DNA from: Deferribacteraceae bacterium V6Fe1
GTDB taxonomy: Bacteria; Chrysiogenota; Deferribacteres; Deferribacterales; Deferrivibrionaceae
Reading direction: 5' to 3'
Assembly (NCBI GenBank): GCA_022813675.1
Contig: CP063375.1
Location: forward strand, 942,001-1,006,000
Length of the DNA: 64,000 nt
Under the pieces are notes generated by a model that saw only the letters and a program-made list of their open reading frames with translations, had not been told where the DNA came from and made no database searches. Position numbers and translations under genes: made by a program. Below, one piece after another: positions 54,289 through 55,512 of the stretch (position 1 is the stretch's first letter; every line of letters starts with the position of its first letter).

Positions 54289-54756
54289 GTGTTCCAGTAT
54301 GTTAATTTTGGATTAGAATTATATAAAAATTATAAAAAAGATATTAGTTTGAAAAAAGCTTTAAATGATAACTTGATTAGGGAAATAAACTATAATATTT
54401 TAATTTTCGGTGAAATGGAAAAAGTAGAAAAGGACAAATTGAAAAAGTTAATAAATTTATTAGAAACAAACTATTATGATTATTTAGTCAATTCCTTTGT
54501 TAATGTTAGAGAGTTAGTAAAAGATAGAAAAATATCTATTGATGAGAGTAAAATAAAAAATAAAAATTTTTTAAAATGGATTGGCAAGGATCCATCTTTT
54601 ATAGATATTTTAGAAAAAGTATATTTGAGAATCAAAGTTTTAAAATCTTTGGCTAAAGTCGATATAGCACGAAGAAAGGATAGTTATCAGTATGTTAAAT
54701 TGTTATTGTTGGTTTTGAAAAAGGAATTATTCGTGATTCGAGATTTGTATAATTAG
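54289..54756 (+). CDS. hypothetical helical protein
   Basis: I do not recognise this 155-residue protein. It is Lys- and Leu-rich, apparently all-helical, has no signal peptide or membrane segment, and no Cys. The GTG start follows AGAGGAG by six bases. It stands alone between the tyvelose cassette and a broken four-helix gene, in the AT-rich accessory part. It could be a cargo gene of a defence or repeat-related kind, but nothing supports a specific role. Confidence 0.55.
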   Translation: MFQYVNFGLELYKNYKKDISLKKALNDNLIREINYNILIFGEMEKVEKDKLKKLINLLETNYYDYLVNSFVNVRELVKDRKISIDESKIKNKNFLKWIGKDPSFIDILEKVYLRIKVLKSLAKVDIARRKDSYQYVKLLLLVLKKELFVIRDLYN

Positions 54757-54938
54757 TAATAATTTATAGTGAGATGAGCATGTGGAATTGATTATAAGGA
54801 TTTGGAAGTATGGAAGAAAAGTATTACTTTAATTAAATCTATTTATAGAGTTCGTAATGGTTTTCCACAGGAAGAAAGGTATGGCTTGGTTGATCGAATC
54901 AAAAGAAGTGCAGTTTTAATTTCTGCTAATATTGCTTG

Positions 54939-55242
54939 CCCTGTGGAATAAAATGTTTTATGTGTATGTGTTGCAGAGTGAAAAAGATATGAAATTTTAT
55001 GTTGGTATAAATCAAATTTACGTGAGAGAGTTAGCAGCACAAAAATGCAAACGTAAAATCAACTAAACATAGGAGACTACTAAAATTGATTTATTATGAA
55101 GCTTGTATTAGTCAAAAAGGCGCATTGAAAAGAGAAAAATATTTAAAATCAACTTACGGAAAAAGATATATAAAAAATAGATTAAAAAATTATTTGGATA
55201 CTATAGAATAATTGAATTTGATGTTTTTGATATTCCACAGGG
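54939..55242 (+). mobile_element. 304-bp GIY-YIG mini-element with 12-bp inverted repeats
   Basis: Bounded by CCCTGTGGAATA (54939-54950) and its perfect reverse complement TATTCCACAGGG (55231-55242), and almost filled by one small GIY-YIG gene. It interrupts the four-helix gene at its conserved SANIAEG codons. No clear target duplication is seen. Mobility driven by the nuclease, as for homing-type elements, is inference. Confidence 0.8.
54953..55211 (+). pseudogene. GIY-YIG endonuclease gene, frameshifted
   Basis: Starts MFYVYVLQSEKDMKFYVG (the Y-V-Y and Y-V-G forms of GIY-YIG). After CKRKIN the frame hits a stop; shifting by one base recovers TKHRRLLKLIYYEACISQKGALKREKYLKSTYGKRYIKNRL, with the catalytic Glu (YYEA). 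One extra A near 55058 explains the break. Small UvrC-N-type proteins of about 85 residues like this are very common as stand-alone genes in bacteria. Confidence 0.85.
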
Positions 55243-55454
55243 TAAAGGGAGTGGAAGAAATGCTGCAAAGGAATTCATACAATTTTTATATATTTCATTA
55301 GGTAGTGCCTATGAATTGGAAACACATTTAATAATATCAAGATAAGTTTGATTTTTGAAAGATATTGATGATATAATAGAACAAATTAATGAAATTAGAA
55401 AAATGCTGAATGGATTAATCAATTCTTTAAAGAACAAGGTGATCAAAAATGAAT

Positions 55455-55512
55455 AATCAACAATTTATTTCCAATAATAACTATCACAATAAACTATCAA
55501 CTATCACTGACA
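55455..55512 (+). repeat. possible heptamer tract after the disrupted four-helix gene
   Basis: ACTATCA units (AACTATC, ACTATCA, ACTATCA) in an AT-rich stretch, the place where other four-helix genes have their right flank. The left flank of this copy (near 54750-54775, AGTAATAATTTATAGTGAG) matches only loosely. Confidence 0.45.

Follow-up and report, generated by a model that had tools for sequence, protein, structure and literature searches.

What is a segment of 304 bp, made up almost entirely of one small GIY-YIG gene and closed by perfect inverted ends, doing inside an unrelated four-helix gene? Patescibacteria and Bacteroidota commonly carry small stand-alone GIY-YIG genes, most of them unexplained, and the initial annotation of the window (the whole stretch of 64,000 nucleotides analysed here) proposed from this single case that at least some of them are compact mobile elements. 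Our analysis supports that proposal: ends of this type recur, empty sites exist and target duplications are present. The segment is probably a dead copy of a compact mobile element whose only gene codes for a small Slx1/UPF0213-like GIY-YIG nuclease, with the nuclease as the likely mover. That a family of mobile elements exists is strongly supported by the sequences; that the GIY-YIG enzyme moves them is an inference, and the most likely reading. The window contains the following features:

54936-54938: imperfect left-end extension, TTG
54939..54950, + strand: left terminal inverted repeat CCCTGTGGAATA, exact 12-mer
54953..55211, + strand: decayed GIY-YIG nuclease gene, from ATG at 54953 to TAA at 55211; PF01541 match on its 3' part; intact relatives in L011 and L012
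55231..55242, - strand: right terminal inverted repeat, exact reverse complement of the left, exact 12-mer
reaching 55245: imperfect right-end extension, TAA
54796..54938, + strand: host PF05635 four-helix gene, 5' part, ending ..SANIA; profile positions 1-47, 1.7e-12
55243..55414, + strand: host PF05635 gene, 3' part, with two in-frame stops; profile positions 48-106, 2.1e-12

The perfect 12-bp ends are exact at both places, and the 12-mers have exactly two copies in the whole 2.36-Mb genome, both of them the ends of this segment, where base composition predicts 0.14 copies genome-wide. Together with the flanks (54936-54950 and 55231-55245) the inverted repeat has one mismatch in 15. The segment between them is a single GIY-YIG gene splitting a PF05635 four-helix gene, as first described from the letters, with the qualification that the nuclease gene is frameshifted: its frame is broken at about 55005-55045, between an N part MFYVYVLQSEKDMKFYVGI.. 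and a C part ..KSTKHRRLLKLIYYEACISQKGALKREKYLKSTYGKRYIKNRLKNYLDTIE, and its PF01541 score is 23.2 bits against a cut-off of 22.6. Read in the host frame, the left end codes for ..CPVE followed by the stop TAA; since the host frame thus ends immediately within the left end, an intein was rejected. An intron or other known RNA was likewise rejected: seven relatives gave no Rfam match at the gathering score, and positions 54700-55500 of the window gave none at E<=1.

Excision of the 304 bp in silico restores the host frame, as had been claimed, although the join is not the one then given, SANIA-EGKG, which is off by about a codon. The rejoined gene reads NIA-CK-GSGR where an intact PF05635 paralogue of the same genome reads NIA-E-GAAR, so the true join was probably ANIA-E-GSGR, and the insertion was, to judge from this alignment, probably imprecise by a few bases. 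The site deduced from intact relatives, GC[TGAA]GGG, fits the TNNA target described below, and the right junction, TAAA, fits the TRAA flank of the family; the left flank is imprecise and there is no clean 4-bp duplication. By its sequence, then, the window copy is a dead element with imprecise junctions. Besides the interrupted host, its genome carries five PF05635 genes, one of which contains a stop. Of the seven PF05635 matches in the genome (counting the host halves separately), six lie within about 24 kb (window positions ~40655-63935), amid sugar-transfer genes, and one of those in the window (L007) has an in-frame TAA. A PF01541 search of the genome found no other small GIY-YIG gene, the sole other match being a 609-codon frame that is probably uvrC.

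Could this be chance or ordinary gene decay, in which a stand-alone GIY-YIG gene happens to adjoin a broken four-helix gene and the repeat is a coincidence? The decay of both genes in the window would fit such a history. A search for relatives in 50 genomes of the phylum speaks otherwise: two genomes from another family of the order (L011 and L012) carry intact GIY-YIG open reading frames (94 and 92 aa, counted from their first start codons) at the same PF05635 codon as in the window and between the ends CCCTGTGGAATA and TATTCCACAGGG. The rarity of the 12-mer, the flanking pairs, the pattern-only scan and the 4-bp duplications presented below add to this, and we give chance or decay almost no credence. 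Between the loci in the window, L011 and L012, identity is 46-49% for the host halves and 60-64% for the GIY-YIG C-terminal parts that were compared. Independent arrival accounts for this difference better than a single ancient insertion, although element genes may simply evolve more slowly. A second copy of the N half in L012 (2651-2884) was considered as an empty site and rejected, being truncated.

A scan of 84,980 species genomes yielded 80 GIY-YIG loci, most of them from metagenome bins, in Bacteroidota, Balneolota, Rhodothermota, Patescibacteria, Omnitrophota, Planctomycetota, Verrucomicrobia and other phyla. Many of these loci have inverted ends of one kind, ACCCYGT...ACRGGGT and variants. 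Under a strict rule (a CCCNG-type pair with at least 6 exact bases, which misses copies with a stop codon inside the right end), such a pair flanks the GIY-YIG frame in 34 of 83 cases against 0.12 expected. The elements are about 265-320 bp long and share the end core CCCNGT...ACNGGG. Exact ends of the window type are rare, with a single match in 395 Bacteroidia genomes (L020). The 12-mers thus recur around other GIY-YIG genes in L011 and L012, with related ends in many phyla. Carriage by phages or plasmids was rejected: L033, used as a single query, had no match in either the phage or the plasmid collection, and window-type pairs were absent from the viral contigs.

The junctions of these elements carry the signature of transposition. 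Exact 4-bp target duplications, mostly TNNA, are present in 46 of 101 elements. In the first set there were 27 4-bp direct repeats in 76 elements (permutation mean 3.0, maximum 9 of 2000 permutations), and in an independent set of MITEs 19 in 25 (mean 3.1, maximum 10 of 5000); lengths of 2 and 3 were not enriched and longer ones were nearly absent. Of the MITEs, 33 of 45 have the duplication, whereas it is clean in only 12 of 53 full-length copies of the first set; many of these read TT|YACCCC...GGGGTR|AA (TTYA...TRAA) instead, and in the window type a few bases are lost or gained. Among the 101 elements the flanking 4-mer fits TNNA 68 times on the left and 71 times on the right, whereas one 4-mer further out the figures are 5 and 5; TATG also recurs often as a target duplication.

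Several host genes are hit repeatedly: (i) xerC-like recombinases, at LGHKxV^KTT or HT^LRH; (ii) PF05635 genes (the window, L011, L012, L020 and L023); (iii) tRNA genes; and (iv) the starts of folD-, mreB- and nusB-like genes, these host gene names being read from sequence. Uninterrupted forms are available for the first two, the target sequences being GTTAAAACG in xerC and GCTGAAGG in PF05635. Joining TT^AA restores NVKT in L021, SVKT in L033 and HTLRH in L036, and for the xerC of L021 a 91%-identical Fodinibius relative has a clean empty site, uninterrupted AAAAATGTT^AAAAC. In Algoriphagus 4-5 host bases are absent at the insertion site, and uninterrupted Algoriphagus homologues of the host exist. 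Together with the PF05635 paralogues, these provide the uninterrupted host forms whose lack had been named as grounds for abandoning the original claim.

Junctions also fall on the start codon of an open frame in 27 of 94 cases; shifted positions give 3-7 of 76-94. GTG or ATG is often rebuilt from the element's last base and the duplicated TGAA, so that the downstream gene survives, and the excess at start codons may reflect selection rather than targeting. For one element flanked by TTCA (L181), no copy stands at the corresponding gene start in two related genomes (G516 and G517), but their upstream sequence is different, so that TTCA is here a putative duplication. Four GIY-YIG genes (L066, L087, L088 and L090) immediately precede intact tRNA genes (Val, Ser, Cys and Cys), and the 5' half of the tRNA is repeated beyond the GIY-YIG gene, as if an insertion in the anticodon region had been followed by restoration of the gene. 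About 150 nt downstream of the L021 element, behind the same xerC, we observed what remains of the end of a further GIY-YIG gene (..GKRYLRNRMKKYFNEHNF) and, after it, TTTCTAACGTGGTAA.

Would homing suffice for all this? The nuclease would then only cleave uninterrupted alleles (four-helix, xerC or tRNA), repair by recombination would copy its gene in, and the ends would be regulatory or protective, as a transcript hairpin or a source of stop codons. Several observations favour it: the same conserved codons are hit repeatedly, insertion in xerC is clean at TT^AA, the element is oriented as its host in the interrupted genes examined, and copies associated with tRNA genes have a second copy of the tRNA 5' half on their upstream side. 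However, homing requires homologous flanks and creates no duplications, whereas here 4-bp duplications of varying sequence occur at many unrelated sites, insertion is dispersed over start codons and promoter-like TTGACA sites, and copies without a gene share the same ends, with up to 34 pairs per genome. The duplications and the MITEs make homing alone insufficient, and we regard it as an unlikely account of the family.

The initial annotation had suggested looking for inverted end pairs at a set spacing and asking what they enclose. The pattern CCCCGTTAGA, 225-285 bp, TCTAACGGGG (pairs about 250-300 bp apart), which takes no account of proteins, matched 11 times among 379 Patescibacteria genomes, in 8 of them, and never in the reversed control; 8 of the 11 pairs enclose an intact GIY-YIG frame and 3 are non-coding. 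One of these three, L185, lies at the 3' end of a tRNA gene and shows a 4-bp duplication. When the same ends were sought at MITE spacing, 35 of the 379 genomes had such pairs, up to 34 per genome, and the control again had none; all 8 genomes with full-length pairs are among these 35 (hypergeometric p = 2e-9). Spacing between paired arms is mostly ~65-130 bp or 263-297 bp. The duplications, the MITE-like derivatives and the insertions at tRNA genes, start codons and xerC go beyond anything claimed for the locus originally.

Some further arrangements were noticed. In two genomes (G060 and G059; L163-L173) MITEs lie in TTGACA/TGTCAA with duplications TTGA or TCAA, a target resembling a -35 promoter box. 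Arrays of GGGGCGTGCCCCGTTAGAAATTT units (L169, L172 and L161) lie near GIY-YIG genes that have no clear enclosing ends (L052, L069 and L082). In G372, MITEs are nested, the TCCCGTTAG type within the CCCCGTTAG type (L241 and L242). Two MITE-like elements (L209:1460-1690, and L150 at G066:C3:20802-21206) have CCCCGTTAGA ends around a complete tRNA gene (Val and Thr, respectively) and interrupt what appears to be another tRNA gene, seemingly in the region of the anticodon loop; L209 has a second right end after the next tRNA half.

Terminal inverted repeats, a short duplication and MITEs are the usual signature of conventional transposases, and we know of no GIY-YIG nuclease that makes 4-nt staggers or performs strand transfer. 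On these general grounds a different, unseen transposase could recognise the ends and move both the GIY-YIG units and the MITEs, with the nuclease as cargo. Against this, no larger element with these ends was seen: in the few wider arm pairs that were read (G372 and G213) there was no transposase, and the pairs enclose ordinary or toxin-antitoxin-like genes. Moreover, the nuclease is catalytically conserved, and 8 of 8 genomes with full-length pairs also hold MITEs. We consider a separate transposase quite improbable, a shade more so than homing alone.

What is this nuclease? The intact relatives score 61-64 bits with the Pfam GIY-YIG profile PF01541 (cut-off 22.6), and the catalytic residues Y6, Y17, R27, H31 and E63 are conserved in 81-83 of 83; no NCBIfam model exceeded its cut-off and no PHROGs family matched. 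The AlphaFold model has a pLDDT of 90.8. By profile and fold the nearest solved proteins are UPF0213 BH0048 and Slx1 (matches to UPF0213/YhbQ and Slx1: 1zg2, 2.9e-12; 7cq2, 1.1e-5), with I-TevI and UvrC weaker. The class of the ends follows the GIY-YIG tree across phyla, with 13 changes against 27.7 when shuffled (0 of 200 shuffles as low), as is also expected of a passenger travelling with its ends. Identical GIY-YIG proteins occur in two Rhodothermota families, Salinibacteraceae and Rhodothermaceae (L013 and L014); the right flank at these loci resembles a gene for a Y1 (REP-type) transposase. Where the element lies inside a host gene, the host frame stops close to the nuclease start (between -10 and +8 nt) in 12 of 13 cases, which are not independent; other frames do so in 9 of 26. 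This suggests translation coupled to the host gene.

We therefore prefer the GIY-YIG protein as the mover, the simplest reading since it is the only gene, is catalytically conserved and has no other mover-like gene beside it between the ends. In the mechanism that we propose, the palindromic ends would be cut or nicked by the nuclease, perhaps while extruded as hairpins or branched structures; that Slx1 cleaves branched DNA suggests, by analogy, extruded ends as the substrate. The nuclease would also make a cut in the target staggered by 4 nt, leaving host polymerase and ligase to complete the join, and would move MITEs in trans. Inside genes, the left end stops host translation beside the GIY-YIG start codon, and translation of the nuclease is probably coupled to that of the host gene, as the position of the stops suggests. 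Favoured conserved sites (PF05635 NIA-E-G and xerC) may in addition be reached by copying in the manner of homing, since the junctions there are mostly without a clean duplication.

In its boldest form, to which we give about even chances, the proposal is that a GIY-YIG (Slx1-like) nuclease of ~85 residues is a transposase, a new enzyme class of DNA transposition, in the smallest known autonomous transposon (~265-320 bp), that it also drives MITE families in streamlined bacteria, and that it inserts at start codons, tRNA genes and recombinase genes. Were the nuclease the mover, transposition would gain another enzyme class and, with it, its smallest autonomous element; many of the repeats in streamlined genomes would then have an explanation. 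For part of the stand-alone GIY-YIG genes the ends, the target motif, the length of the duplication and the dependent MITEs are now defined, which makes the role of the enzyme testable with one small protein and short DNA. The family is widespread and apparently undescribed: no description was found in our literature search, whose coverage excluded preprints and most subscription papers, and a 2006 survey of the GIY-YIG superfamily, searched as text, does not mention inverted ends.

How do these elements compare with known systems? Like the insertions in rRNA genes of the CPR, which are mostly LAGLIDADG, many in group-I-intron-like sequences, with few GIY-YIG (PMC11270868), they are endonuclease-bearing inserts in conserved genes of Patescibacteria, but they give no intron RNA matches; a 2024 study of the CPR rRNA insertions judged GIY-YIG to lie outside spread by homing. 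With REP/REPIN elements and their RAYT (TnpA-REP) Y1 transposases (PMC3116915, PMC2817692) they share many short palindromic copies alongside a small nuclease gene with matching ends. In contrast to these, the enzyme here matches GIY-YIG in Pfam and not HUH/Y1, the 4-bp duplications are clean and the nuclease gene lies inside the same ends. GIY-YIG homing endonucleases, whether free-standing or borne by introns, such as I-TevI and the T4 Seg proteins, have in common with our family the GIY-YIG core, the catalytic residues, insertion in conserved coding motifs and empty alleles, including identifiable uninterrupted cognate sites (xerC and PF05635). Nevertheless, the nuclease here has ~85 aa without a separate DNA-binding domain and is nearer to UPF0213/Slx1 by fold and sequence, spread is not confined to homologous sites without duplication, and inverted ends, 4-bp duplications and MITEs are foreign to homing. 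The structure-specific nucleases UPF0213/YhbQ and Slx1, nearest by profile and fold, are to our knowledge housekeeping genes not bounded by inverted ends. DDE insertion sequences with MITEs share terminal inverted repeats, a fixed short duplication (here 4 bp) and non-autonomous palindromic derivatives; they differ in that our element has no known transposase (DDE, HUH, tyrosine or serine), its only gene being a GIY-YIG nuclease in a total of ~265-320 bp, and the smallest insertion sequences of which we know are roughly 0.7 kb. The standing of these elements as a new class rests on the GIY-YIG protein being the mobilising enzyme; otherwise they are elements of the TIR/MITE type.
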